Source of the DNA: a virus
Length of the DNA: 26,068 bases
Virus record (IMG/VR): IMGVR_UViG_3300044846_003384
Coordinates: 1 to 26,068 of that record
Reading direction: 5' to 3' (one strand)
Of the stretch, positions 706 to 19,100 are shown piece by piece. The position numbers were made by a program, and so were the translations under genes. Below the pieces are notes generated by a model. That model saw only the letters and a program-made list of their open reading frames with translations, ran no database searches and was not told where the DNA came from. Position 1 is the first letter of the stretch; each line of letters starts with the position of its first letter.

Positions 706-1827
706 TTAAATTACATAAATTTGTCTTGGCATTGCTCTGAATTTAAGTTGTTTGTTTAGATTTTCCGCCAATAACGCTTCCCTCTCCATTACTTTTTCAG
801 GTCTTAATCTTGTAAGTCTCCCTTCAGCACCAATTAATTCTTCAATCAATTTACTTTTTTCATCTTTTGATTCAGTTGCCAATGATTGATAATCTAAAGT
901 TAATTCAGAATCAGGAGTTTTCAAGTTTCCACTATATTTTCCTCTAACTTTTGATAAAGTTTCTTTACAATATGCGATAAACCAACGTCTAACCCATTGT
1001 TGTGCGGGATTATTTAAATCAACCCATGCTAAATTATCAAATGGAACATCTGACGGTAATTTAATAATATCAGGATTATCTTTAAGACATTTATCTCTTT
1101 CTCCTTGACTTGTATCATAATACCAATACCATACTTTACCTTTCATTAGTGTCGCATTACCAAAGTCAAACTTACCACCAGGTGTGTTCATTAGGTGGAC
1201 AGCCTTTTTACCATCAGGGAGAGCGGTTATTCTATATGTTAAATCACCAGCAATAATCCTCCTCTTTAAATTGATGTCTTGCATTCTTAACATCATATCA
1301 AAACCTGGCATCATAAAATATGAACCAACGGCACCCATTTGAGAATATCCAGCGGGTCCACCAAAACCAGCTCCTCCTAAAGCCCCAAAAGACCAAGGGT
1401 CAAATAACACATTATTTAACGCATTTGGTGTGAACCATAATAACTCATTTAGTTCTCTATCAGCAGGAATTTCGTAAATTTGTTGGTTAGGTTGTAATTG
1501 TATATAATCTTTTTTTAATTCCCAATCTCCACCGGCCTGTAATCCTACGATTTTAGAATAAGCGTATGTATATCTTGTCTCATAATCTAAACTTTTTGTA
1601 ATAAATGCACGAGATAAAGATTGTGTGTCTAAGTTTAGATTATATAGTGAAGTCCATTGAGATTCTATTAACCAATCTTGTACATACTGAGCGTATTCAC
1701 CAATTGAAAACTCTAATAACGTATCCATCTGTTCATCTTCTAATTCAACAGATCTTAAAGGTGCACCTAATAAATGTCTAACCTTTCTATAAAGGTCACT
1801 TCTTTCTGGTTCGGGAATAACTGCCAT
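706..1827 (-). CDS. Neck protein, T4 gp13-like
   Basis: This 373-residue protein probably forms part of the ring that closes the head and joins it to the tail. The N-terminus (residues 9-50, LYRKVRHLLG then a helix with EYAQYVQDWL) looks like a head-completion or adaptor helix bundle. The C-terminal third has a pattern seen in gp13-type neck proteins: an aromatic/basic helix W-V-R-R-W-F-I-A-Y-C-K, then KYSG and a long charged helix. T4 gp13 is shorter, at about 309 residues. The extra length includes a Gly/Met/Phe-rich loop (about residues 143-180) that reads as disordered or membrane-active. The gene starts 15 bases after a TATTTAT element. The neck assignment rests on remembered family patterns and the neighbouring tail genes. 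Confidence 0.55.
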   Translation of the reverse strand: MAVIPEPERSDLYRKVRHLLGAPLRSVELEDEQMDTLLEFSIGEYAQYVQDWLIESQWTSLYNLNLDTQSLSRAFITKSLDYETRYTYAYSKIVGLQAGGDWELKKDYIQLQPNQQIYEIPADRELNELLWFTPNALNNVLFDPWSFGALGGAGFGGPAGYSQMGAVGSYFMMPGFDMMLRMQDINLKRRIIAGDLTYRITALPDGKKAVHLMNTPGGKFDFGNATLMKGKVWYWYYDTSQGERDKCLKDNPDIIKLPSDVPFDNLAWVDLNNPAQQWVRRWFIAYCKETLSKVRGKYSGNLKTPDSELTLDYQSLATESKDEKSKLIEELIGAEGRLTRLRPEKVMEREALLAENLNKQLKFRAMPRQIYVI

Positions 1828-2934: not shown

Positions 2935-2946
2935 ATTAATAAATAT
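2904..2946 (-). repeat. Promoter-plus-leader cassette, copy 1
   Basis: These 43 bases match 11527-11569 at 37 positions: ATATTTATTAATATGAAAT is identical, and the leader codons then differ at 6 places. Most of the differences keep the residues similar. Confidence 0.75.
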
Positions 2947-4465
2947 GTTTAACTAAGTTTGATGTCGGGATTTCAAATACACCATTAATAACTTGGGTAT
3001 TTGAATTGTCAAATATGTAGGCCCCATCACTATTATTAACAAAAATTAAATAATCCGTTTTATAATTTTTAACACCACCAGTGCCAATCATTTTGTATAC
3101 ACCATTATTATCTTCTATTCTACCAAATGGTTTAATTTGTGCGGTATAAACTTTCCCATCTTTAGTAATCTTACAATCAATACCACTAATTGCATCTTCA
3201 AGATTACCTAAACCACCAATTTTTTCAACATTGTCATCACCAAAAAAAGTTTTAAGTTTTTCAATTGCAAGATCTTCATTTTCTTCACCCTTTTTATTTT
3301 TTTCAGTTAATGCGTTCATAATTTTTTCAAATGTAGAAGATTCGATAGAGAAAATCCTGGATTGGTATTCTTTTATAATCTCCATCATTCTTTGAACTTC
3401 TTCAATTTGTTGTTTAACTGTTTTATTCTTAAAAGAAATTAATTCAACATTTTGTTTAGATAAAACTTTATTAATGTCACCAACTAATATACAAAAGGTA
3501 AAATAATTTGTATTAATTTTATTAATCACAGATCTACCTTGAGTTTCAAAATCATAGATACCTTTCATTTGATTTGGACCATATTCATTTTTTTCATAAT
3601 AGTTATCAGGAAAAACTTCGGCCAAAACTTTATCAATTCCAAATTTAAATACATTTCTAACATATTTGTTAGTATTGAATAATGTTCTGTAAAAACTAAT
3701 TTCCTTCACATCGCAATATTCTTTAGTTGATTCGGCTAAAATTTGTTTAATCGAAGTTTCCTCATTTAATTTTGTTTTTGTTTTTGTTTCTAATAACTCA
3801 TTTACAAATTCCCAATTAACTGATTTCCAAAAGTTTTTTATATATTCATCTCTTTTATTTTGGTATTTTAAATAATAAGCGTGTTCCCAAAGATCCAAAC
3901 CAAGAATAGGAAAACCACCATTTTTAATAACATTCATTAATGGGTTATCTTGATTTGCGGTTGATATAATTTTTAATGTGTTTCTTTTTGTTAAAACTAA
4001 CCATACCCATCCTGAACCAAATCGTTTAGTTGCCACGTATTCAAATTTAGATTTAAATTCTTTTAAACTACCAAATGATTGATTTATTTTTTTTAAAACA
4101 AGTCCATTACATTCTTGTTCTTTTGGTGATAACATTTTCCAAAATAATGCATGGTTAAACGCTCCACCAGCATTATTTCTAATTGTTCGGTTATATTTAC
4201 TAATTCTTTTTATTATATTTTCAAGTTCAACATCACCATAATCTTTTTTGGATAAAGCATCGTTTAATTTTTTAACATAACCTTTGTAATGTTTATTGTA
4301 ATGAACATCCATAGTTTCAGCATCAATAAAATTTTTTAATGCGGAATATGAATAAGGTAGTTTTTCAATACCTATTTTTTTTGCTTCTTCGATTAAAGAT
4401 TTTTTTGCAGATTCCATTAATATGGAATTCTCAATAAGTTGAATTTTATTTTCAATATACTTCAT
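2936..4465 (-). CDS. Mn-type superoxide dismutase fused to PD-(D/E)XK-like nuclease domain
   Basis: This 509-residue fusion carries a complete Fe/Mn superoxide dismutase domain at residues about 35-228: LPYSYSAL, ligand H55 in HYNKHYKGYV, H105 in NNAGGAFNH, GSGWVWLV, and D191/H195 in DLWEHAYY. Gly at 101 plus Q172 in STANQDNPLM is the Mn-type arrangement. A linker of unknown fold follows (229-394). The C-terminal domain (395-509) has E-D-L-A-I-E, G-I-D430-C and T-A-Q443-I-K445-P-F, like the nuclease gene downstream. I chose the ATG at 4465 over the in-frame start at 4540. It follows a TATTTAT element by 7 bases and begins MKYIENKIQL, matching the leader of the other cargo-like enzymes. Possible [LI]-x-E cut sites lie at L-M-E (16-18) and L-A-E (243-245). 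The fold is sure for SOD and moderate for the nuclease. Confidence 0.85.
   Translation of the reverse strand: MKYIENKIQLIENSILMESAKKSLIEEAKKIGIEKLPYSYSALKNFIDAETMDVHYNKHYKGYVKKLNDALSKKDYGDVELENIIKRISKYNRTIRNNAGGAFNHALFWKMLSPKEQECNGLVLKKINQSFGSLKEFKSKFEYVATKRFGSGWVWLVLTKRNTLKIISTANQDNPLMNVIKNGGFPILGLDLWEHAYYLKYQNKRDEYIKNFWKSVNWEFVNELLETKTKTKLNEETSIKQILAESTKEYCDVKEISFYRTLFNTNKYVRNVFKFGIDKVLAEVFPDNYYEKNEYGPNQMKGIYDFETQGRSVINKINTNYFTFCILVGDINKVLSKQNVELISFKNKTVKQQIEEVQRMMEIIKEYQSRIFSIESSTFEKIMNALTEKNKKGEENEDLAIEKLKTFFGDDNVEKIGGLGNLEDAISGIDCKITKDGKVYTAQIKPFGRIEDNNGVYKMIGTGGVKNYKTDYLIFVNNSDGAYIFDNSNTQVINGVFEIPTSNLVKHIY
2939..2945 (-). promoter_or_regulatory. TATTTAT element, nuclease gene
   Basis: TATTTAT then TAAT then ATG: a spacing of only 4 bases. 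It lies within the last codons of the upstream SOD-nuclease gene. Confidence 0.5.
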
Positions 4466-4487: not shown

Positions 4488-6251
4488 TTATAAAGAATTA
4501 ATTCTTGACATAATTTCTTGGACAACATCTGTTTTATCAATGTTATCTCCCATCACAGTATCTATGATATTTTTCTTATTTGATAATATGTCATATATTG
4601 CACCTTCAATAGTATTTTCAAATATAGGATAATATACTGACACACTATTTTTTTGACCATACCTATAAGCCCTGTCCTCGGCTTGTTGATGATCAGATGG
4701 TACAAATGATAAATCATTCATAATACAAGCTTCACCGGCAGTAAGAGTAATACCAACACCCGCAGCTTTTAAGTTTCCAACAAATACTTTTATTTTATCA
4801 TTCTCTTGGAATTGGTCAACAGCGTGTTGACGATGAGGTTTACTACAAGAACCATCTAAATAAACTGCTTGTTTACCAAAATGATCTTTTATTTTATTTA
4901 AAGTATCAGTAAAGTTAGTGAATATTATTACTTTTTTATCTTGATCAATAATATTCTGAGCAAGTTCTATTGTTGTTTTTATTTTCTCATCGGCAATAAC
5001 TTGTCTAACTTTCATTAATTTTGAAAACTGTATGGTTAACGATGAGGACTCTTCTTTTTTGTTGTTATACCAGTCGTAATACTCCCCTACTAAATTTTCA
5101 TATTCTTTTGATTTTAGTCTCAAATAAACAGGTGTAATGATTTTGTCAGGTAAATCTAATACTTCGGTTTTTAATCTTCTTAAAAATTGTCGTGATGTTC
5201 TTTCTCTTAATTCCTCAAGATTTGATGCACCTTGTACATTCCATACTTTTCTTTTCCCAGCATTAAATTGATATCCTTGACAATATCGGATCGCATACGC
5301 CATCCAATTTTGGGCGACGGGACTTTCAATTAATTGTAATAAATTAAAATAATTCATTGGTCTTGAGGTCATCGGGGTCCCTGTTAATAACCAAAGATAT
5401 TTTGAGTTTTTAGCAAAATTATTAACTAATTTCGTTCTTTGGGCTTGACCGTTTTGAATATAATGGGCTTCATCAATTATTATCAAATCAAAATTACCTT
5501 TAATAATTAATGATTCTTCTTTTAGATCGTGGAAGTTTTTTAGAATGTCATAATTAACTATCACAAAATCATGGTCAAGTGAAAAGTTTTTACCTTCAGC
5601 AATATACACACTTCTATCAGTGTAGTTTTTAATTTCACGTTCCCAATTTATTTTAAGTGATGCAGGACAAATAATTAAAATTTTTTTAATCCCTGTCTCT
5701 AAAGCTGCTATGATGGTTGATGTTGTCTTACCAAGACCCATATCATCGGCCAATATAAATCTTTTAGTACCTACTAATTTCTCAATTGCTTCTTTTTGAT
5801 GTGAAAGTGGTGGTCTATGATCGTATTTTGAATAATCAATATTAACCACTTCGGTTTTGTGAGTTTTAATAATCGCCGATTTTGGTAACCATATATCTGA
5901 CAAAGTATTACCCGAAAAAAATTTACCCCAAATATGGTATGACTTATCCTTTTCGACTAAAAGTTTCTCAATCCATATTTGTTCAGGTATTGATGTGAAT
6001 AATTTTTCATCGGCAAATTTCTTAGCAAAATAAGGATCTAAGTCAACCCATTTTTTTGCAACTTTTGGGGTTGTATTTGAGTAGTTAACAATATACTCAC
6101 ATTGTGATCTGGTTGGTACAAAATTTTTATTACTTATTGATTTTTCTTTAAGATAGATTAAATAATTATTCGCACCTTCATATGTCTCCAATATATCAAG
6201 GGCTTTTTTCTCAATGACTTCAAATGTCTTTTTTAAATCGGTATTTTCCAA
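4488..6251 (-). CDS. SNF2-family (SMARCAL1-like) DNA helicase/translocase
   Basis: This superfamily 2 ATPase probably remodels forks or recombination intermediates during phage replication. With the start at 6251 it has 587 residues: an N-terminal domain (1-140), Walker A ADDMGLGKT (168-176), CPASLKINW (195-203), Walker B DEAH (260-263), LTGTP (289-293), then the C-terminal RecA-like half with VGNLKAAGVGITLTAG (491-506) and the arginine-finger motif QAEDRAYRYGQ (523-533). All the catalytic motifs look intact. There is no ATG before Walker A. The open frame reaches 6299, but that extension is a hydrophobic run translated from AT-rich promoter-like DNA. A TTG at 6251 sits 15 bases after TATTTAT, the same spacing as the neck gene. 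In T4 this role belongs to UvsW, which is a different SF2 branch. Confidence 0.88.
   Translation of the reverse strand: MENTDLKKTFEVIEKKALDILETYEGANNYLIYLKEKSISNKNFVPTRSQCEYIVNYSNTTPKVAKKWVDLDPYFAKKFADEKLFTSIPEQIWIEKLLVEKDKSYHIWGKFFSGNTLSDIWLPKSAIIKTHKTEVVNIDYSKYDHRPPLSHQKEAIEKLVGTKRFILADDMGLGKTTSTIIAALETGIKKILIICPASLKINWEREIKNYTDRSVYIAEGKNFSLDHDFVIVNYDILKNFHDLKEESLIIKGNFDLIIIDEAHYIQNGQAQRTKLVNNFAKNSKYLWLLTGTPMTSRPMNYFNLLQLIESPVAQNWMAYAIRYCQGYQFNAGKRKVWNVQGASNLEELRERTSRQFLRRLKTEVLDLPDKIITPVYLRLKSKEYENLVGEYYDWYNNKKEESSSLTIQFSKLMKVRQVIADEKIKTTIELAQNIIDQDKKVIIFTNFTDTLNKIKDHFGKQAVYLDGSCSKPHRQHAVDQFQENDKIKVFVGNLKAAGVGITLTAGEACIMNDLSFVPSDHQQAEDRAYRYGQKNSVSVYYPIFENTIEGAIYDILSNKKNIIDTVMGDNIDKTDVVQEIMSRINSL
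4493..4506. promoter_or_regulatory. 14-base perfect palindrome before SOD-nuclease promoter
   Basis: AAGAATTAATTCTT lies in the last helicase codons, 13 bases upstream of the TATTTAT of the SOD-nuclease gene. Its core AGAATTAATTCT differs by one base from the palindrome upstream of the RHH gene, so it could be a second RHH site. Confidence 0.3.
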
Positions 6252-6266
6252 AACAATACTAAATAT

Positions 6267-6273
6267 ATAAATA
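6267..6273 (-). promoter_or_regulatory. TATTTAT element, helicase gene
   Basis: TATTTAT lies 15 bases before a TTG at 6251, which supports TTG as the helicase start. Confidence 0.45.
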
Positions 6274-6289
6274 ATAATAACTATTAAGA

Positions 6290-6296
6290 TATTTAT
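6290..6296 (+). promoter_or_regulatory. TATTTAT element, gp14-like gene
   Basis: GATATTTATCAATATG: spacing of 4 bases to the start. With the element at 6267 it forms a compact divergent promoter region. Confidence 0.5.
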
Positions 6297-6300
6297 CAAT

Positions 6301-8142: not shown

Positions 8143-11100
8143 ATGGCTACAAACAGTAAAGTATTCGTTTCACCAGGGGTTTACACCTCTGAAGTTGATT
8201 TGAGTTTTGTGGCTCAGAGTGTCGGTGTTACTACGTTAGGTATCGTAGGAGAAACATTAAAAGGTCCGGCCTTTGAACCCATATTCATCACGAATTTTGA
8301 TGAGTTTTCCACTTTTTTTGGTGGGACTTCCCCTGAAAAATTTGTTAACACTCAAATACCTAAATACGAGGCGGCGTATATCGCAAAATCTTACTTACAA
8401 CAATCTAACCAATTGTTTGTAACAAGAGTTTTGGGATTATCAGGTTATGATGCAGGACCATCTTGGTCTTTCACAACTAAAGCAAATGTTGATAAAGAAA
8501 CCGTAGGGTTTTTCTGTGAATCAGGAATTACGGTTGATTGTGAATTTCAGTGTGTTGATTATAAAACAATTAACTATACTATCGACTTCTCAGGATGTAA
8601 CAATTCTACAACATCAATAACTTACACAGATTTATCTGGATGTCCTGATGAATTATTGGATAAACTATATCTACCTTATGAAAATTTTGATGGTAGTGTA
8701 TCATCACTTGACGCTGATATTAAAGATCAAATCTTTACAATTTTAAACACACCATCAGCGGCAACTACTAATATTAATTATTATGGTACAATTCCTACAT
8801 CAGAATATGATATGTTATCTACAGTTTTCACAAATGAAAACAATGTGTTTAATGTTGAAGATGTAAGTTCTGAATTGGCTGATTATACATCACCGTTAAA
8901 TGACGCTTGGTATTACGCATTATTTGACAATGTTGGTAGTGGAGTTTATTCAGGGTATTCAATGTTCTCATTTGTATATGACTTACAATTAATACCTGTA
9001 GTTACAACTACAACTGCCGCTCCAACTACAACTACAACAACTACAGATCCTTGTGTTACACCTCTACCAACAACTACAACAACTACAACAACTGCGAAAC
9101 CAGTTAATTGTTACACAGGTAGTTTAATGGGAACAATTTATGTTTATTCAGGTACTGCATATCTTAATTATGATGATTTAGTTATCGCAACTATGAGATC
9201 AAGAGGTTTGGCTACTTATGGTAGTGATAATGGAGCTGCATACGAAGTAACAGGTCTTACAGATGTTAACATAGTTTGTACTAATGGTTATTCAGCCGTT
9301 ACTAAAAACCCATTTGCAACATTTGGAATGAATATTACTAAAAATGATGGTGAAACATTATTCTTTGAAACTTCGTTCTCAAATTCTGACAGTAAATACC
9401 TTACTAAAGTATTTGGTCAATCTAACTTTGGTAAAGATAGAAATTCAGTTCCACTATTTGTTGAGGAAAATTATCCAAACTTATTAGTGTGGGCTTATCG
9501 TAAAGGTTATATTCGTGGACTAAGTTGTGATTTAATTTCATTACCTGAAGCAAGACAAGGGGTTGATCCTACATCAATTGCTTGGTACTTAGAAAAATAT
9601 CAGTCACCTGAATCTCCTTGGGTTGTATCTGAATTGAGAGGTTCTAAAGTTTATAGATTATTCAAGTTCACAACAATTGCGGATGGAGACGCTGCGAATA
9701 CTGAAGTTAAAATTTCAATCGCAAACATTTCATTTAATAATGGAACATTTGATGTGTTAGTTAGAGATTTCTTCGATACTGATAACAATCCAATTGTTAT
9801 TGAAAAATTCACTAACTGTAATATGAATCCTAATGATAATGGATATATAGCTAAAAAAATCGGAACGTCTGATGGTGAATATCAACTAAACTCTAAATAT
9901 GTTATGGTTGAAGTTAACGAAAACGCACCAATAGATGCATTGGCTTGTGGTTTTGAAGGATTTAAAATGAGAGAATACGCTGGGGCTCGTTCACCATTCC
10001 CGATTATTAAATCTAAATACGATTTCCCTGGTGAAGTTGTATTTGACCCACCATTTGGTTTATCATCAGGAGCTAATGATGCTACAATATCTTCAGGTGA
10101 TAATGTTAGAAGAACTTATTTAGGTATTTCAGATACGGTAGGTATTGATCCTTCTTTCTACTACTATAAAGGTAAACAATTACCAACTAGTATTTGTGAT
10201 TCAGTATCGGCACCTGAATGGTCTTACAAAACAAAAGGATTCCACATGGATATAAATGCTTCGGCAATTACAATTCCTAACACATTTGTTACAAGTGGTA
10301 CTCCTGAGTTTGTTTGTGGATCGGCAGAATTTACATCAGACCCTGATAACGAACAAAACCCATACTACAGATTATTCGCAAGAAAATTCTCTTTCTTAGT
10401 ACAAGGTGGATTTGACGGATGGGATATTTACAGAGAATACAGAACTAATGGTGACAGATACCAATTAGGTAGAACAGGATATTTAAAAGGTGCATGTCCT
10501 TCTATAAAATACCCGACAGCTACAGGATGGGGAGCGTTTAAACAAATAACAGTTGGTGATGGTACTCAAAATTACGCTAACACCGATTATTACGCTTATC
10601 TATTGGGTATTGGAACATTCTCAAATCCTGAAGCGGTTAATATTAATGTATTTGTAACACCTGGTATTGATTATGTAAACAACTCTGATTTAGTTGGTTC
10701 GGCAATCGAAATGATTGAATTTGAAAGAGCGGATTCAGTTTATATCACAACAACACCTGACTACAACATGTTTGTTCCGTCTCTTGGTGATGCGACTGAT
10801 TTAATCTTCCCTCAAGAAGCTGTTGATAATCTTGAAACAGCAGGAATTGATTCTAACTATACTGCAACTTACTACCCTTGGATTTTGGTTAGAGATACAG
10901 TTAATAATACACAAATTTATTTACCACCAACAGGTGAGGTAACTAAAAACTTGGCATTAACTGATAACATAGCGTTCCCTTGGTTCGCGGCAGCAGGTTA
11001 CACAAGAGGTATCGTTAGTTCAGTTAAAGCACGTAAGAAGTTGACTCAAGAAGATAGAGATACTCTTTATAAAGGAAGAATCAACCCAATTGCAACTTTC

Positions 11101-11472
11101 TCTGATGTTGGTACGGTAATTTGGGGTAATAAAACTCTTCAAATTAAAGAATCTGCACTTGACAGAATTAACGTGAGAAGATTGTTGTTACAAGCTCGTA
11201 AGTTGATTTCAGCAGTTTCTGTAAGATTGTTGTTCGAACAAAATGATCAGAAAGTAAGACAAGATTTCTTAAACGCTGTTAATCCTATCTTGGACGGAAT
11301 TAGAAGAGATAGAGGTCTTTATGACTTCCGAGTAACAGTTTCTTCAGACGCGGCTGATTTAGATAGAAACCAAATGACAGGTAAAATCTACATCAAACCA
11401 ACTAAGTCACTTGAATTCATTGACATTACATTCTACATCACTCCAACAGGAGCGTCGTTTGAGGATGTTTAA
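8143..11472 (+). CDS. gp18: Contractile tail sheath protein with large insertions
   Basis: This protein forms the contractile sheath around the tail tube. The N-terminus has the sheath signature SPGVYTSEVD, then GIVGETLKGPAFEPI and a helix AAYIAKSYLQQSNQLFVTRV. The C-terminal 170 residues carry the interlocking domain: GRINPIATF, G-T-V-I-W-G, RRLLLQARKLI, then the final strands IYIKPTKSLEFIDITFYITP. At 1109 residues it is far longer than T4 gp18 (659). The excess sits in the middle. It includes a Cys-bearing segment (five Cys starting at C125), a Thr/Pro low-complexity linker (residues about 288-320) and a further beta-rich block. These probably form domains on the outside of the sheath. A long A-rich leader (42 bases after TATTTAT) and a strong terminator make it its own transcription unit. 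Confidence 0.93.
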   Translation: MATNSKVFVSPGVYTSEVDLSFVAQSVGVTTLGIVGETLKGPAFEPIFITNFDEFSTFFGGTSPEKFVNTQIPKYEAAYIAKSYLQQSNQLFVTRVLGLSGYDAGPSWSFTTKANVDKETVGFFCESGITVDCEFQCVDYKTINYTIDFSGCNNSTTSITYTDLSGCPDELLDKLYLPYENFDGSVSSLDADIKDQIFTILNTPSAATTNINYYGTIPTSEYDMLSTVFTNENNVFNVEDVSSELADYTSPLNDAWYYALFDNVGSGVYSGYSMFSFVYDLQLIPVVTTTTAAPTTTTTTTDPCVTPLPTTTTTTTTAKPVNCYTGSLMGTIYVYSGTAYLNYDDLVIATMRSRGLATYGSDNGAAYEVTGLTDVNIVCTNGYSAVTKNPFATFGMNITKNDGETLFFETSFSNSDSKYLTKVFGQSNFGKDRNSVPLFVEENYPNLLVWAYRKGYIRGLSCDLISLPEARQGVDPTSIAWYLEKYQSPESPWVVSELRGSKVYRLFKFTTIADGDAANTEVKISIANISFNNGTFDVLVRDFFDTDNNPIVIEKFTNCNMNPNDNGYIAKKIGTSDGEYQLNSKYVMVEVNENAPIDALACGFEGFKMREYAGARSPFPIIKSKYDFPGEVVFDPPFGLSSGANDATISSGDNVRRTYLGISDTVGIDPSFYYYKGKQLPTSICDSVSAPEWSYKTKGFHMDINASAITIPNTFVTSGTPEFVCGSAEFTSDPDNEQNPYYRLFARKFSFLVQGGFDGWDIYREYRTNGDRYQLGRTGYLKGACPSIKYPTATGWGAFKQITVGDGTQNYANTDYYAYLLGIGTFSNPEAVNINVFVTPGIDYVNNSDLVGSAIEMIEFERADSVYITTTPDYNMFVPSLGDATDLIFPQEAVDNLETAGIDSNYTATYYPWILVRDTVNNTQIYLPPTGEVTKNLALTDNIAFPWFAAAGYTRGIVSSVKARKKLTQEDRDTLYKGRINPIATFSDVGTVIWGNKTLQIKESALDRINVRRLLLQARKLISAVSVRLLFEQNDQKVRQDFLNAVNPILDGIRRDRGLYDFRVTVSSDAADLDRNQMTGKIYIKPTKSLEFIDITFYITPTGASFEDV
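9004..9102 (+). repeat. ACA/ACT threonine-codon tract in sheath gene
   Basis: A run of alternating ACA and ACT codons, broken by GCC GCT CCA and by a short Cys-containing segment, encodes two Thr clusters with Pro caps. The low-complexity DNA could expand or contract by slippage in 3-base units without shifting the frame. The protein segment looks like a flexible linker between surface domains. Confidence 0.8.
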
Positions 11473-11526: not shown

Positions 11527-11569
11527 ATATTTATTAATATGAAATTTATATTAACCGAATCACAACTTG
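11527..11569 (+). repeat. Promoter-plus-leader cassette, copy 2
   Basis: Second copy of the cassette at complement 2904-2946. It covers the TATTTAT element, the start codon and the first ten leader codons. Similarity fades after the leader. Confidence 0.75.
11528..11534 (+). promoter_or_regulatory. TATTTAT element, HAD gene
   Basis: TATTTAT then TAAT then ATG, 4-base spacing, matching the nuclease gene at 2934 base for base across this stretch. Confidence 0.5.
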
Positions 11570-12504
11570 TTTATATTAGAGAAAACAATCAGAAAAAAAA
11601 TCTTAGATTATACGGATTTGATTGGGATGATAATATATTACAAATGCCAACAAAAATATATTTGAAGTCGGATCTTGGAGATGTTGTTGGCATGTCAACT
11701 GAGGATTTTGCGGAATTCAGACACCTAATAGGTAAAGAACCTTTTGATTATGAAGGGGAAACAATTGTAGGTTATGATGAAAATCCATATAGAGACTTCA
11801 CACATTCTGAAACATTTTTAGAAGATACTGCCGAAGCGATAGAAAAGAATAAAAAATCCCCAAGTTTTAATAAGTTCAAGGAAAATTTAATATACGCCAA
11901 CCCTTTTTCTATTATAACAGCTAGAGGTCATAGTCCTAGTGTAATTAAAAAAGGAGTTAAAATGTTTATCAAATTGGTTATGGAACCTGATGAAATAAGA
12001 ACGATGGTTAAAAATATCAAAGACACGTTAAAACATGAGGAAACTTTTTCGGATAGATTTTTAAATCAATTAGACGAACTTTCAGTTGGACAAACAATTG
12101 ACCTTTATCTTGATGAGAGAGGTGATTATTATCCTGTGTCTTCAAAAGAGTTCGGAGAAAAGTTTGGTTTAGAAACAAGTGGTGGGGCATCAAATCCTGA
12201 ACACGCTAAAAAAGTTGCCCTACTTGATTTCATCACAAAATATGATGATTTAATTAAAAGTGGTAAATACGTAAATACCTCTTTAGGGTTTTCAGATGAT
12301 GATCCAAAAAATATTAAAGCAATGGTTGAATTTGTTAATAATGAATTATCAAGAATGTATCCAGAAGTTAAATTTATTATATATGATACTTCAGAAGGAG
12401 GATATTCAAAAATTCATATAGAAGCTAATAAAGAAAATGATAATGATGATTATATGCTAGAATCTTTAATTAAAAGAAGATTATTGAAAATAAAATCAAA
12501 GTAA
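11539..12504 (+). CDS. Leader-tagged HAD-superfamily phosphatase
   Basis: This 321-residue protein has HAD motifs in order: motif I GFDWDDN (nucleophile D28, acid/base D30), motif II S-I-I-T127-A-R-G, a basic motif III candidate (K224/K225) and motif IV GFSDDDPKN (D253/D254). About 90 residues lie between motifs I and II, and a cap-like segment of about 95 between II and III. Substrate cannot be read: nucleotides or DNA/RNA ends are plausible because T4 PseT has a HAD phosphatase domain. The N-terminus MKFILTESQLVYIRE repeats the leader of the nuclease at 2934. L-T-E (5-7) and I-R-E (13-15) could be prohead-protease sites. It sits alone between sheath and tube, four bases after TATTTAT. Confidence 0.75.
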   Translation: MKFILTESQLVYIRENNQKKNLRLYGFDWDDNILQMPTKIYLKSDLGDVVGMSTEDFAEFRHLIGKEPFDYEGETIVGYDENPYRDFTHSETFLEDTAEAIEKNKKSPSFNKFKENLIYANPFSIITARGHSPSVIKKGVKMFIKLVMEPDEIRTMVKNIKDTLKHEETFSDRFLNQLDELSVGQTIDLYLDERGDYYPVSSKEFGEKFGLETSGGASNPEHAKKVALLDFITKYDDLIKSGKYVNTSLGFSDDDPKNIKAMVEFVNNELSRMYPEVKFIIYDTSEGGYSKIHIEANKENDNDDYMLESLIKRRLLKIKSK

Positions 12505-12527
12505 ATAGAAAAAAAAATATATACATA

Positions 12528-12534
12528 TATTTAT
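12528..12534 (+). promoter_or_regulatory. TATTTAT element, tube gene
   Basis: TATTTAT lies 33 bases before the tube ATG, followed by an A-rich leader without a Shine-Dalgarno sequence. Confidence 0.5.
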
Positions 12535-12567
12535 AATAAAAAATAAACTTTAAAAAAATTAGAAAAC

Positions 12568-13056
12568 ATGGCGGATTTATTAATGAAAATGCCAATACCT
12601 TACGAACCTAAAAGACAAAATAGGTTTATAATGAGATTTCCATCTACGTTGGGTATCAATGAATGGTTTGTTGAAACATCGTCGAGACCACATATAACAA
12701 TCGGTACTACTGAGATTCAATTCTTAAATACTTCAACGTATGTTGCAGGTCGATTTACTTGGGGTACAATTAATGTTAAGTTCCGTGACCCTATTGGACC
12801 GTCAGCTTCTCAGGCATTAATGGAGTGGGTTCGTCTATGTGCTGAATCTGTAACAGGACGTATGGGTTATGCCGCTGGTTATAAGAAAAATGTTGATTTG
12901 GAAATGTTAGACCCAACAGGTGTTGTTGTTGAGAAATGGATATTAGAAGGCGCTTGGTTAAGTGATGTGAACTTTGATAGTTTAGCTTATAACTCAGACG
13001 CGATAGCTTCAATTACAGCGACACTTAGACCAGATCGTTGTATATTGGTTTACTAA
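12568..13056 (+). CDS. gp19: Tail tube protein
   Basis: This 162-residue protein is almost exactly the length of T4 gp19 (163). It polymerises into the inner tube through which DNA passes. Residues include YEPKRQNRFIMRFP at the start (the usual P-x(3)-N-R-F opening of T4 tube proteins), IGTTEIQFLNTSTYVAGR, a W-G-T-I-N-V-K-F strand with R-D-P-I-G, a helix A-L-M-E-W-V-R, and WILEGAWLSDVNFDSL near the end. It has its own TATTTAT element 33 bases upstream, an A-rich leader and a strong terminator behind it, as expected for an abundant product needing its own dosage. Confidence 0.9.
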   Translation: MADLLMKMPIPYEPKRQNRFIMRFPSTLGINEWFVETSSRPHITIGTTEIQFLNTSTYVAGRFTWGTINVKFRDPIGPSASQALMEWVRLCAESVTGRMGYAAGYKKNVDLEMLDPTGVVVEKWILEGAWLSDVNFDSLAYNSDAIASITATLRPDRCILVY

Positions 13057-13080
13057 TAATATTATTTACAAGGAAATATT

Positions 13081-13124
13081 AATCCATATATTTATCTTAA
13101 TGGTAAATGTATGGATTTTTTTTT
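13081..13124 (+). terminator. Intrinsic terminator after tube gene
   Basis: Arms at 13081-13094 and 13104-13117 pair over 14 positions with one mismatch, around a 9-base loop, and run into nine T. The left arm contains TATTTAT (13089-13095). Confidence 0.88.
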
Positions 13125-13170
13125 GTCCATATAATGACTATATATCAAACAAATATAATTAAAAATTATT

Positions 13171-13929
13171 ATGGAACAAAATTTAATAGATGCTGGTCAA
13201 CAAAATTTTACATTACCTCATGATGTGGTAACTTTACCTAGCAAAGGAGTTTTTTATAAAAATAAAAAAAGTTCAGTTAAAGTTGGTTATCTAAATGCTA
13301 GTGATGAAAATATTTTAGTAAGTGGTAGTCAGTTAGGTAGAGAAAACATTATCATGACTTTATTACGTAATAAAGTTTATGAACCTGATTTAAAACCTGA
13401 AGAGTTGGTTGAAGGTGATATTGAAGCTATTCTATTATTCCTTAGAAACACATCATTTGGTCCCGAATATTCAGTTAATTTAATTGATCCTAAAACTGAT
13501 AAAATATTTAATCACATTGAAATAATTGATGAGATGATGTATAAAAAAGTTGATTCTCAACCTGATAGTGATGGTTTATTTAGTGCTAAATTACCTAGAA
13601 CGGGGGTGACGGTTAAACTTAAACCATTAACTATGGGTGATACTATGGAATTAGATAGAATGGAGAGTCAATATCCCGCAGGATTGGTAATACCAAAAAT
13701 TACGTGGAGACTTAATAAAATGATACAATCAATTGATGGTAATTCTGATAGAGGTGTAATATCCCAATTTGTAGAAACAATGCCAATTTTAGACTCAAAA
13801 TTTGTTAGAGAGTTTATTAAAAAAAATAATCCAGGTTTAGAATTAACAAGATATGCAATAGCCCCGTCAGGAGAAAGAGTTACATTTGATGTGACTTTTG
13901 GGGTTGAATTTTTTCGCCCTTTCTTCTGA
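13171..13929 (+). CDS. Baseplate/tail assembly protein, T4 gp26-like
   Basis: This 252-residue protein has the pattern of T4 gp26-type baseplate proteins: LPSKGVFY near residue 23, a E-N-I-L segment, G-D-I-E-A-I-L-L-F-L-R and F-G-P-E-Y (about residues 90-110), then a C-terminal strand pair ending V-T-F-G-V-E-F-F-R-P-F-F. In T4-like phages this gene is followed by a small helical partner, and here that partner lies in the +1 frame and appears to be joined by ribosomal frameshifting near the end. The protein is thought to act in hub or wedge assembly rather than as an enzyme. The start has an A-rich upstream. A TATTTAT lies 75 bases before it, inside the terminator hairpin of the tube gene. Confidence 0.65.
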   Translation: MEQNLIDAGQQNFTLPHDVVTLPSKGVFYKNKKSSVKVGYLNASDENILVSGSQLGRENIIMTLLRNKVYEPDLKPEELVEGDIEAILLFLRNTSFGPEYSVNLIDPKTDKIFNHIEIIDEMMYKKVDSQPDSDGLFSAKLPRTGVTVKLKPLTMGDTMELDRMESQYPAGLVIPKITWRLNKMIQSIDGNSDRGVISQFVETMPILDSKFVREFIKKNNPGLELTRYAIAPSGERVTFDVTFGVEFFRPFF

Positions 13930-14071
13930 GTATGGTAAATATTTAATTGATGAATACTATGTGTTGGCTAAAATACTTAGAATGAGCTATAGTGATTTTA
14001 TGGTTATACCGACATATAAAAGAAAATATTTAATAAATAGAATTATAAAAGACAATACCCCGGAAAAATAA
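13895..14071 (+). CDS. +1-frame extension of the gp26-like protein (probable frameshift product)
   Basis: This frame is open from just after a TGA at 13892-13894 to a TAA at 14069-14071. It overlaps the end of the gp26-like gene and has no ATG until 13982, which would leave only 29 codons. Translated from the shift point it gives about 51 residues: SSEYGKYLIDEYYVLAKIL, then MSYSDFMVIPTYKRKYLI and NRIIKD. The 'YxD-x-x-x-I-P-x-x-x-R-K-Y-L' pattern resembles the small helical protein that follows gp26 in other T4-like phages (my recollection of gp51-type or chaperone sequences). The fused product would be 299 residues. TTG starts at 13898 or 13904 are possible alternatives. The stop codon lies inside the terminator hairpin, so the gene ends right there. 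Confidence 0.65.
   Translation, partial: LLGLNFFALSSEYGKYLIDEYYVLAKILRMSYSDFMVIPTYKRKYLINRIIKDNTPEK
13909..13916 (+). other. Candidate +1 ribosomal frameshift site TTT TTT CGC
   Basis: In frame the ribosome reads GAA TTT TTT CGC. If tRNA-Phe in the P site slips from TTT (13912-13914) to TTC (13913-13915), reading resumes at GCC and enters the downstream frame. The sequence is close to the +1 site UCC UUU CGU that produces influenza PA-X. A -2 slip would reach the same frame. Confidence 0.55.
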
Positions 14072-14085
14072 AATTCCGGGGTTTT
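14057..14085 (+). terminator. Intrinsic terminator after gp26-like gene
   Basis: ACCCCGGAA and TTCCGGGGT pair perfectly around an A-rich 8-base loop, followed by a short T run. The stop codon of the frameshift extension falls inside the loop. Confidence 0.88.
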
Positions 14086-14086
14086 A

Positions 14087-14093
14087 TATTTAT
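14087..14093 (+). promoter_or_regulatory. TATTTAT element, tape measure gene
   Basis: TATTTAT directly follows the terminator and lies 14 bases before the tape measure ATG. It overlaps a TATAAATA (14091-14098), the T4 late consensus. Confidence 0.5.
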
Positions 14094-14107
14094 AAATAAA
14101 AAAAGTT

Positions 14108-16063
14108 ATGGATGATGAAGATAGTATATTTGACAGTTTAAAAAACAAGGTTAATGATGTTGTTAAAGAAATTGGTGCTGCGTTTGAAAGTAACATAAAT
14201 CCTGGTAGGATAGGTGAAACTATGGTTGCGTTAGAAAATAATGCGACAGTACTTATTACTAAATTTAATCAAGGACGGGAAAATATTCAAGCGATGAAGG
14301 AGGTTCTTGCTGATTCAGTACATAGTGTTATTGAGTTGGGGGGATCAATGGAAGATGTGTTACAAATACAAGAAAGTATGACCGATGTTTTAGGTAGGAA
14401 TACTTTGTTAATGTCCGATTCATTTAAAGATTTATACGCCGCGTCAAAAGCTTCAGGTGTTGGTGCTGATACAATTGCATCTTCATTTAAAGATGTCGGT
14501 ATATCAGTTTATGATTCATCTAAACAAGTTGAAATGGTTTTAAACACCGCCAGAGAAATCGGGGTTAATGCTAAAGAAGTAACTAGTCAAGTATTGGATA
14601 ATACCGACATGTTAAATAAATACACATTCCAAGGAGGTGTGGAAGGGTTAGCTAAAATGGCAGCTCAAGCAACAAATTTAAGAATTAATGTTTCAGACAT
14701 GGCTACCACATTAGATAAAGCGTTTGATCCTGAAAGTGCGATTGAAATGGCTGCGGCTATGCAAAGATTAGGGGTTACCCAATCTGATTTATTAGATCCC
14801 CTTAGATTGATGGATTTGGCTCAGAATGATCCTGCGGAATTACAAAATCAAATTGCTGAGATGTCAAAACAATTTGTTCAGCTAAATGAAAAAGGTCAAT
14901 TTGAGATTATGCCGGGGGCTAAAAGACAATTAATTGAGATTGAAAAATCTTTAGGTATGGGTTCGGGTACTTTAAGTAAAATGGCGTTGGCAAGTGCGGA
15001 GTTGGGTGATAAAATGAGTAAAATCAAATTTCCTGAAGGTGCTTTCAGTGAAGAACAAAAAACTTTAATTGCCAATATGGCAGAAATGAAAGAAGGTGAA
15101 TATAGAATAACATTGGGTGGTGAAGAATTGGGTATTGATGAAGCGATAGATAGACTTAAAGGTGATGACCAAAAAATGAAAGATTTACTTGAAGCGTCAA
15201 AACCAAAAACTCTTGAAGAATTAACTAAAGACCAATTAGGTGTTATGGGAGCGTTAAATCAAAGTGTTAAAGCTTTGGCGGATAGAATTCCATATGCAAT
15301 TGCTAGCCAAAAAGGTGGAACTGATATGTTCACTAAAGTAGGTAAAGGAGGTCAAGCAATTATGAGTTCATTTGATACTACTTCAACAAGTGTTAAAAAT
15401 TTAAGAGGTCAGTTTGATCAATTTGGTGACGGACTTGGTAAATTACTTAAAGGTGAAAGTAGTTTAGAAGAATTTGGTAAAAGTGTAAAAAAATTAGGCG
15501 ATTTTATGAATGACACATTTATTGAGGTTGCAAAAAATGTTGATAAAAACGTTGAAGGTGCGACTGGGTTAAAGATATATGAAACAGTTCAAAAAATAGA
15601 TAACACATTATCAAATGCTAAAGATGCGAATGATTTTATTATATCTGAAGAAGGGGTTTTAAAAACCGCACCTCAAGATACTATAATTGGTATGACCCAA
15701 GGTGATAAATTAATGGGAATGTTAGAAAAAATGCAAACAATTAATCCTCTTGAGTCAACAAAACCAATCACGGATATGGGAAAAATGCAAACAACGACCC
15801 CTGTCGATATCTCAAACGATTTAGGACTTAACATTCAAGACTTTATAAAAAACATGCCAACGGTAACTACTACAAATGAAAACAATAACACTAATAAAAA
15901 TGAAATGACAATGAATTTAAATGTTAGTGGTTTACCTAGTGGGGTAAATACTGAAGAAGTTATTAAAGTTATTAAAGAAACTTTAGGTAAAACTGAATTT
16001 ATGAGAGAATTTAATAAAATGAATAAAGATACTCAGACAAATGATAATATGACAGTATCTTAA
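14108..16063 (+). CDS. Tail tape measure protein
   Basis: This 651-residue, largely helical protein probably sets tail length and sits inside the tube. It has long amphipathic helices rich in Ala, Met, Lys and Glu, with Gln/Asn-rich turns, from residue 1 to about 520. A low-complexity Thr/Asn segment comes next (about 585-605), then a short C-terminal domain with I-K-V-I-K-E-T-L. No enzymatic motif and no clear membrane segment is visible. It is close in size to T4 gp29 (590 residues), and at the usual 1.5 angstrom per residue it would set a tail of roughly 100 nm. Its place between the gp26-like gene and the baseplate genes fits. It starts 14 bases after TATTTAT. Confidence 0.7.
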   Translation: MDDEDSIFDSLKNKVNDVVKEIGAAFESNINPGRIGETMVALENNATVLITKFNQGRENIQAMKEVLADSVHSVIELGGSMEDVLQIQESMTDVLGRNTLLMSDSFKDLYAASKASGVGADTIASSFKDVGISVYDSSKQVEMVLNTAREIGVNAKEVTSQVLDNTDMLNKYTFQGGVEGLAKMAAQATNLRINVSDMATTLDKAFDPESAIEMAAAMQRLGVTQSDLLDPLRLMDLAQNDPAELQNQIAEMSKQFVQLNEKGQFEIMPGAKRQLIEIEKSLGMGSGTLSKMALASAELGDKMSKIKFPEGAFSEEQKTLIANMAEMKEGEYRITLGGEELGIDEAIDRLKGDDQKMKDLLEASKPKTLEELTKDQLGVMGALNQSVKALADRIPYAIASQKGGTDMFTKVGKGGQAIMSSFDTTSTSVKNLRGQFDQFGDGLGKLLKGESSLEEFGKSVKKLGDFMNDTFIEVAKNVDKNVEGATGLKIYETVQKIDNTLSNAKDANDFIISEEGVLKTAPQDTIIGMTQGDKLMGMLEKMQTINPLESTKPITDMGKMQTTTPVDISNDLGLNIQDFIKNMPTVTTTNENNNTNKNEMTMNLNVSGLPSGVNTEEVIKVIKETLGKTEFMREFNKMNKDTQTNDNMTVS

Positions 16064-16102: not shown

Positions 16103-19100
16103 ATGCCTGATAGTCCATTATCGTTTGCGTCTAGTTCATCTTTTAGAGATGCTTTAATGGTTAAAAATTTACCACCATATAGTGTTGAAGGAGAGTTTAG
16201 CCCTCCATCAGGACCAATTAATTACGAAACGGTTTTAGGTAATTCAAACGTTATTGATTCCCCAAATAATTTAAATGAGACATATCCTAATCAATTATAC
16301 CCATTAAATGAGTATGGACCTGATGGTGGATATAATCTAACAATAGATTTTAATGGACCGCCATTACCTGTAACTCCTAATCAAGGACCATATGAACCAC
16401 TTGAAAGTCAAGTATTACAATTGGGAGGGTTTTATATACAAAATCCGTATATTATTAACATTTATTCACCTGAAGGTGGTTATGATTATGTGTACGATGT
16501 AACAGATATTCAAGTTACAGGACAAATTCATTTACCATATTTTAATAGTTTTGTTTCTTCAAGTTATTCGCCATATTCAATTTTAATTAGTAATAACCCA
16601 ACAGGATCTGATGGTTCATTATCTCAAGATTCTTATATCGCAAAATTAGGTGCAAGTCAGTTACAATTTTTATTTCAAGAACGAATTAATACTGAAATTG
16701 CACAATCAACTGTAGGTGCGGTTAATTTACAATCATTACAAGATCCATTTGAAGCAGCTTTATTAGTTACAGGACAACAACCTTTAATATATAGAAATTG
16801 GAAAATTACGGTTCCTGAAAACGCTATAGTTGCGGCCGTTGATTTTGCGACAAGAATTGCAGGGGCTTATTGGCCTGTATCATTTATACCTGGTGATTAC
16901 TTTACCGAAAATGAATATGGTAATTTAGCGACTAATCAAACCTCAAACGCTTTAAGTACGGTAAACCAATTAACGGGAGGATTATTAGGTCCGATTTTAA
17001 ATTTAAAAAGGAACCCATCTCAGATATTTTTGGCAAACACTGGAAATGGTCAGAGATCGGCATTGTTTTTAAATTTACATTATAATAGATATAGTCCTGA
17101 TTATAATAATGAATTTGGTGGAGGTTTAGGTGTTATACAAGGTTTAGTTAATGCGGTATCAAACTTAATTAATCCTAATGGTACTATAAATGGTGGTTAT
17201 TATGTTGGTAGTTCTAATGCGGAACCATCACAAATTACTAGTCCTGTAAATCAAATACCAATAAATCAATATGGTGAACAAAATCCATCGCCAGTATATG
17301 GGCCGTCAGAATTAGGTCAGTTATATGAAGGTAATATTGAAGGTATTAAATTTGGATTAGCGGGTAAATCATCAACTGACGGGGGTGGTATTGATGGTCA
17401 ATTTGTTTGGGTTTCCCCAAAATATAAAGATAACGCAGGATTTAAAGCAACACCTGGTGGTGGTCCTGGCAGTGCTGATGATGAATTTAATATTATTAGT
17501 TCACAATATAAAAGTAATGAATCAACAAATCTTGATTTAAAAAAAGGATCAATTTTAGACAACACTCAAAAATTAGTTGATTCAGGTGATTTAGTTACAG
17601 GTGCTAACAGGTTAAAACACGTTGGTAACGCAATTAATCAAGTTTCTAAAGTTTTTAATGACGGGTATAAAGAAATGACAAAAGGATCTCAAGTTGTTTC
17701 TTATAAAGATAATACAACAGGGGCAGAAGCCGGAATTGAGTATTGTAGAGTTTTCACAAAAGATACACCATATTACACATTTGCTGATTTACAAAAAACA
17801 GATGGTATTACAACATCAGGTAGAAGATTTACAAATTCAGTTTTAGATAATACATACAATTTAAACATAGCTCCATTAAAAAATCCTGGGTCGACTAATA
17901 TCGTTAAGAATGAGAAAGGTGATTTTTACGCTAAAAAATATATGTTCTCTATTGAGAATTTGGCTTGGAGAACATCAAGTAGACCAGGGTTTACTTATGA
18001 TGAATTACCTGATTGTGAAAAAGGACCTAACGGTGGTAGAGTGATGTGGTTCCCACCATATAACTTATCTTTCAATGACTCAAGTACCGCAAACTGGAAC
18101 CCAACAACATTTTTAGGTAGACCTGAACCCATATATACTTATAAAGACACAACTAGAAGTGGATCATTGAGTTGGACCATTATTGTTGATAGTCCATCAG
18201 TGTTAAATGTTATAGTTAATGAACAACTGAAAAATGTTGATGACGAAAGAATTAACTCAATTTTAGAATCATTTTTTGCGGGTTGTGTGAAATTTGATAT
18301 ATATGAATTGGCTAAAAAATATAATAAAATACCTTTTACCGAATTACAACAAATTCAAGAAACATTAAACAACCCAAAATTAACTGCTGAAGAATTAGCA
18401 CAATTAAAAAATCAAATTCCTGCAGATAACACTAAAACAGATGGTGAACAAGGTAATAATGAGGGTAGTGGGAGCCAAACAAAAACAACAAATGATACGA
18501 CCGCAGATGACTTTAAAAATAAATTTAAGGAATTTGCATTTTATTTTGATAATGATATACCTGGACCCCCTAAAACAGGTACTAATACCACTTCAGTAAA
18601 TTATGATACAACATATTCGGCTTATATTGCTAAAAAAAGTCAATACGCTGAAAAATCTAAAACCGCATTTTTACCTGGTAGTATTGAAACAAATACTGAT
18701 GGTTTCTTTACTACTGTTATAGAATCTAACTATCAAGAAATTGCTGGTGAAAAAGATGGTTTTATTGTAAAAGCAATTGAATTACTTGAAAAAGGTTATG
18801 GACCTATTAAAGTAACATTAGAAGGATCGGCATCTGCGGTTGCTAGTAATGAATATAACAAATCATTATCTCAAAGAAGGATTGATTCTGTTAGAAATTT
18901 CTTTAAAACTAAAACCATTGGTGGTAAAAGTTTAGGGACTTATATGAAAGGTAACCCTGATGATAAATTTATTATTGAGTCGGCTAAAGGATTTGGTGAA
19001 GATGTTGTTATACCTAAAACATCAACAGCTACAGATGCAACAGGAGGGGATTCACCAACAGGTAGTACTGAATCAGGAACTGCTAATGATGTTAATTGTC

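Follow-up and report, generated by a model that had tools for sequence, protein, structure and literature searches.

The stretch of DNA analysed here (the window, 26,068 nucleotides of IMG/VR record IMGVR_UViG_3300044846_003384) carries on its minus strand, at 2936..4465, an open reading frame for a 509-residue putative cargo polyprotein, P0001, composed of a short leader, a superoxide dismutase (SOD), a double-site linker and a nuclease-like domain. The frame runs from an ATG at 4465 to a stop codon at 2936-2938; this ATG is the start common to the relatives of P0001, and a longer frame from a TTG is also present. Its conserved neighbours, both on the minus strand, are an SNF2-type helicase gene upstream (4488..6299) and a head-tail connector (neck) gene downstream (706..1827; phrog_211 head-tail adaptor). 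The order helicase-fusion-neck is found in 77 of 82 loci, the remaining 5 each being without one neighbour. A single base separates the P0001 stop codon from the start of P0002 (1858..2934, minus strand), whose 358-residue product bears a leader and a QxK domain related to that of P0001. Elsewhere in the window, the 1109-residue tail sheath (8143-11472, plus strand) has long threonine-rich low-complexity stretches, which sit in an insert ahead of the conserved C-terminal sheath domain, and a 1684-residue baseplate-region protein (16103-21157, plus strand) contains a stretch, EGSASAVASNEYNKSLSQRRIDSVRNFF, that resembles the OmpA-type peptidoglycan-binding motif.

The SOD module of P0001 occupies residues 28-235 (3761..4384, minus strand). 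A sequence-only reading of this DNA had described a full SOD domain with four metal ligands, and this description holds: Pfam Sod_Fe_N (PF00081) matches residues 33-113 (E 9e-23, 81 bits versus a cut-off of 27), Sod_Fe_C (PF02777) matches residues 123-223 (E 1.5e-39, 134.6 bits versus a cut-off of 20.9), and the ligands H55, H105, D191 and H195 (codons 4301-4303, 4151-4153, 3893-3895 and 3881-3883, respectively, minus strand) are invariant in 91/91 distinct phage SODs. The Mn-type Gly/Gln pair of the same reading, G101 and Q172, is equally invariant in these 91 proteins, as are H59, Y63, G189-L190, E194 and Y198. The Mn-type Gly aligns to G101, four residues ahead of ligand H105, while G189-L190 adjoin the Asp ligand D191; together, G101/Q172 and G189-L190 point to a preference for Mn. 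By its residues, the phage SOD appears to be an intact Mn-type enzyme with predicted dismutase activity, and the possibility of a degenerate SOD was rejected on the invariance of the active-site residues in the 91 distinct proteins. Matches to the NCBIfam SOD equivalogs all fell under the cut-off. Structure prediction combined with a fold search, proposed earlier as a check, gave no loss of the SOD fold; the predicted fold matches 6gsc in Foldseek (TM 0.87 by target length, E 1e-19), and the nearest solved SOD structures are the Sphingobacterium Mn enzymes. Fe/Mn-family SODs usually act as dimers or tetramers.

The C-terminal module (residues 246-509; 2939..3730, minus strand), modelled as a separate unit with an AF2 pLDDT of 91.6, consists of a helical part (about residues 250-389) and a PD-(D/E)XK-like domain (residues 390-509; 2939..3298, minus strand). 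In the latter, G393, E397, D424, G428, D430, Q443, K445 and P446 do not vary among 84 distinct proteins (codons on the minus strand: E397 3275-3277, D430 3176-3178, Q443 3137-3139, K445 3131-3133), so that the C-terminal D...QxK domain first recognised by eye in P0001 is borne out by its relatives and by the fold predicted for residues ~390-509. The top Foldseek match of this domain is I-Ssp6803I (E 4e-3), and VIA-align returned Hjc (Z 8.4), SPARDA DREN (Z 8.0), NhoI (Z 7.8) and DpnI (Z 6.5); PD-(D/E)XK enzymes fill the top places in both searches, which gives the fold moderate support, as Z values near 8 can arise by chance. The catalytic residues of SPARDA DREN, D41/Q60/K62, form the same D, Q, K set (PMC12205087). 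A PD-(D/E)XK-like nuclease fold is predicted for the C-terminal domain, and with it nuclease activity. A sequence search of the C module against solved structures gave no credible match, no C module was found in bacterial genomes searched with one short pattern, and PADLOC returned a marginal HerA match only. For the helical part (250-389), no match to known folds was seen in a match list filled by the nuclease fold, and no relative was identified outside these phages.

Relatives, ancestry and phage type

At least 596 stretches in IMG/VR encode relatives of P0001; the best 80 of these align over nearly the whole protein at 52-66% identity, save for one identical copy among them, and contigs with fusion relatives reach 322 kb. 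Profiles for an HExxH module (H), the SOD (S), the C module (C) and the P0002-type domain (P) recovered, as proteins with both domains of P0001, 84 distinct S-C ORFs, in which all catalytic residues are invariant in both halves. An assembly artefact or chance fusion, the error that would have undermined the earlier reading, was rejected, since the same ORF recurs in dozens of independent contigs.

In a tree of 30 phage SODs and 80 bacterial SODs, mostly from Bacteroidota, the phage SODs form one clade (100/100 support) on a long stem of 0.72 changes per site. This topology points to one old acquisition; within this sample, the SOD appears to have been acquired once and long ago, and a recent pick-up of a host SOD gene was rejected on the single clade and its long stem. 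Among isolated phages, a tblastn search of 50,697 phage records with the C module and P0002 gave no match, and the SOD matches in these records span the SOD part only. Stand-alone SODs do occur in isolated phages, for example Pseudomonas phage PA5oct and Vibrio phage 2.275.O. Several of these matches lie in short unannotated 'phage' records, such as OR850395, OR845917 and OR851122, which carry bacterial-type SOD genes and look like host DNA contamination.

The proposal that the gene is phage-encoded is upheld. Two 322-kb relatives (G001 and G002) encode a Peptidase_S77 (gp21-family prohead protease) and gp23-type capsid proteins, the window itself being a 26-kb fragment. Close to its N terminus, the G001 gp23 reads HLINE/ATS (the slash marking the putative cut, here and below), and the gp23 of Flavobacterium phage immuto has IVSE/AN in a similar position; a literature search found no paper on the proteomics of immuto. 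By capsid protein, the top isolate match is a Microcystis phage, and Flavobacterium phages, immuto included, are among the nearest isolates. The source of P0001 is probably a T4-like jumbo phage, its probable Bacteroidota host being suggested by the SOD relatives and by these Flavobacterium phages.

Leader and linker motifs and the arrangement of modules

The N-terminal leader of P0001 (residues 1-27; 4385..4465, minus strand) ends LIEE/AKK and is predicted to be a capsid-targeting propeptide with an [LI]-x-E cut site, and the inter-module linker (residues 236-245; 3731..3760, minus strand) is bounded by two putative cut sites of the prohead protease, LNE235/ and LAE245/. In the full P0001 model, pLDDT drops below 50 only at residues 19-29 and 232-248, stretches that are variable and predicted to be disordered, yet hold near-invariant [LI]-x-E motifs. 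Among the relatives, 77/81 have [LIVM]xE at residue 27, 81/81 at residue 235 and 80/81 at residue 245. For a set of 37 non-redundant proteins (less than 80% identical to one another), the linker sites occur in 37/37 and 36/37 versus a permutation maximum of 8 (2000 trials), and the leader-column site in 35/37 versus at most 9 in 1000 permutations. The double site is present in 83/84 S-C and 43/44 S-P linkers, as opposed to 2.4% of random windows. Because [LI]xE is short, with a single [LIVM]xE appearing by chance in 27% of random 23-residue windows from inside modules, such motifs gain evidential weight only from their conservation and position. The conserved Glu of the linker could also do something else. 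A literature search yielded no description of the leader motif or of a phage SOD fusion.

Leaders of this kind recur in many other proteins of three ~300-kb phages: a pattern of [LIV][TSN]E near the start followed by [LIVM]xE marks 24, 19 and 23 of their N termini, versus 2.0, 1.3 and 1.7 expected from internal windows, and its most frequent form in G001 is MKK[IV]xRLTESDLxxIVKRIIxE. The N terminus of P0002 reads MKYIFTESQL...ILINE/D, and the G001 homologue of P0002 is located between the prohead protease and the scaffold/capsid genes. Within the window, a 321-residue ORF between the tail sheath and tube-like genes (11539-12504, plus strand) opens with a leader of the same type, MKFILTESQL, after which comes a DWDDN motif reminiscent of HAD-type hydrolases; Pfam and PHROG gave no match for it, and the examined loci had no homologue beside the fusion. 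Next to the HExxH gene, L093 (6053-6868, minus strand; G001 66053-66868) encodes a protein that has a leader (MRKLLITEEEKSHIKKLHNINEQ) and a glycoside hydrolase 19 domain and is possibly a packaged wall-degrading enzyme. Two unrelated proteins of the isolated relative Flavobacterium phage immuto (L272 25061-25456 and L274 11675-12139) have in common the leader MKKQILSEQF.RMQ.LAGIITES, a second leader type.

The modules themselves occur in several arrangements, the distinct ORF architectures comprising S-C (84), H-S-P (43), H-S (30), P (26), C (15), H (13), S (1) and S-P (1). By hhalign, P is a homologue of C (probability 95.5%, E 1.5e-8), and the HExxH module, which precedes the SOD in 73 distinct ORFs, has a gene to itself in G001. 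Where C is encoded alone, it begins with a leader that ends LSE/S at the position corresponding to the junction of the fusion, and in one locus (L150) SOD and C are adjoining separate genes with a leader on each. At the other extreme, a 962-residue ORF (L336) strings together five modules, H-S-X-X-P, with INES ahead of each X; among the 316 genes of G001, X finds its closest kin in small tandem genes whose products begin MK[YF]LITES (E 2e-5 to 2e-4). Tandem genes of 103-121 residues with this start, kin of the L336 beads, lie in L091 at 12040-14179 (minus strand; G001 32040-34179). In the windows tested, [LIVM]xE precedes S in 84/84 S-C proteins and in 73/73 cases after H, and it precedes C in 84/84 S-C proteins and P after S in 44/44. 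It is rarer where modules are encoded alone (C 25/33, P 20/26), about a quarter of these being without it in the tested window.

Proposed maturation and possible role of P0001

The linkers of P0001 resemble sequences cleaved by a protease with which the phage assembles its head, and P0001 is thus probably carried in the particle as separable beads. On balance, P0001 is best regarded as a virion cargo polyprotein from which the prohead protease would release the SOD and the nuclease-like protein as free molecules, with its packaging, cutting, ejection, activities and role all presumed from the features described above. The leader and the leader-like linker would target the P0001 chain to the prohead core, where, as the head matures, a gp21-type prohead protease would cut behind the [LI]-x-E motifs that end at residues 27, 235 and 245, freeing a Mn-type SOD of ~208 residues and a PD-(D/E)XK-like nuclease of ~264 residues. 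The two products would remain alongside the DNA within the head until infection brings them into the cell, where the SOD may reduce superoxide and thereby afford protection, and the nuclease-like domain may act on nucleic acid of the host or of a competitor. In its mature state, P0001 most likely exists as two separate proteins, whose delivery into the host, already suggested by the earlier reading, is upheld by inference. The passage of a folded SOD through the phage tail is doubtful.

The other half of the earlier reading, a single fused bifunctional enzyme, fares less well. That P0001 is a one-piece bifunctional enzyme made in the infected cell, with the linker Glu serving a structural or docking role, would agree with the retention of a single ORF in at least 84 distinct S-C proteins, conserved throughout at about 53-66% identity, but the joining segment is predicted to be disordered and its best-conserved feature is nonetheless a protease-type motif, present as a double [LI]-x-E in nearly every S-C linker. 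Furthermore, both parts exist as separate leader-bearing genes in L150, and the SOD is also found beside unrelated modules, which implies that conservation does not act on a partnership of the SOD with this nuclease; this alternative appears unlikely. In another alternative, it would not be gp21 but the HExxH module, as a zincin-type metallopeptidase, that frees the beads of a packaged polyprotein. The position of this module N-terminal to the SOD in so many ORFs, its existence as a separate gene in G001 and the zincin processing proposed for polyvalent proteins (PMC5512222) speak for such a release, which is nevertheless judged quite improbable: the junction motif fits the specificity of gp21, [LI]xE is found in the capsid proteins too, and P0001 is without an HExxH module (within the 26-kb fragment). 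Little credence is given, finally, to an ordinary auxiliary metabolic gene, in which the SOD would be active during infection and the C-terminal domain would merely bind nucleic acid or structural partners. The intact SOD active site and the stand-alone SODs of PA5oct and 2.275.O are in keeping with this explanation, but it does not account for the invariance of the nuclease residues E397, D430, Q443 and K445, leaves the leader and linker motifs without explanation, and sits poorly with the location of the nearest module relative among head genes.

The cargo polyprotein reading extends to a more general picture, for and against which the evidence is about evenly poised, of beads on a string: modules with their own head-targeting, cleavable leaders, freely fused or split and diced in the prohead by its protease, one bead being an antioxidant enzyme delivered at infection. 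If this is true, superoxide at infection would be a hazard or a defence for the phage to disarm. A leader or linker ending [LI]-x-E would provide a list of head cargo readable from genomes alone, amounting to about 20 head-carried proteins, mostly of unknown function, per uncultured T4-like jumbo phage. On this reading, a bacterial virus is expected to carry a SOD in its head, and the role of superoxide in phage infection becomes directly testable.

Comparison with known systems

The phage SODs share with the Fe/Mn SODs of Bacteroidota (Sphingobacterium 6GSC; Segetibacter, Ferruginibacter) about 45-56% identity, the same fold, ligands and Mn-type residues, but differ in forming one long-stemmed clade and in being embedded in a polyprotein. 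Residues 390-509 resemble I-Ssp6803I-like SPARDA DREN and Hjc resolvases in their fold and conserved D..QxK, whereas the C module of P0001 has an extra helical part (250-389) in comparison with the PD-(D/E)XK nucleases examined. The predicted structure of a 501-residue protein from an uncultured Caudovirales phage (UniProt A0A6J5L953) contains the same C module (TM 0.92, 38% identical); its name, 'superoxide dismutase', and its length appear to fit the same two-module architecture. The name covers the SOD half only, and no characterisation of this protein was found in the literature. A precedent for a packaged viral SOD is provided by chlorovirus PBCV-1, the virions of which contain a Cu/Zn SOD thought to lower superoxide at infection (PMC7019647), although that enzyme is unrelated, stands alone and belongs to an algal virus.

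In T4, the gp21 prohead protease cuts after L/I-X-E, and internal proteins are targeted to the head by N-terminal propeptides of 10-19 residues that gp21 removes (PMC9026906). Like the T4 internal head proteins (IPI-III, Alt), P0001 has a short N-terminal leader that ends [LI]-x-E; the likeness lies in the N-terminal place and the [LI]-x-E end, capsid targeting being predicted. The relatives of its phage, like T4, encode a T4-type protease and capsid genes, and numerous unrelated putative cargo proteins bear one leader type, as the T4 internal proteins do. Unlike these, the modules of P0001, a SOD among them, are chained by leader-like linkers, and their packaging is presumed. With the polyvalent proteins of phages and conjugative elements, multidomain proteins believed to reach the host together with the DNA (Iyer et al. 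2017; PMC5512222), P0001 and its relatives share a build in which a single chain combines dissimilar enzymatic domains, L336 having as many as five modules. The zincin-like HExxH domain, common but not obligatory in polyvalent proteins, is absent from P0001 and present in its H-S and H-S-P relatives. Superoxide is not mentioned in the main text of that study, and no T4 internal or polyvalent protein was found described in the literature with a SOD or with protease-site linkers. In contrast to polyvalent proteins, P0001 has prohead-protease-type motifs at its junctions, and its modules also occur as separate leader-bearing genes. What would be new in P0001, relative to both the T4 internal and the polyvalent proteins, is a SOD as putative cargo and the protease-site linkers between its modules.
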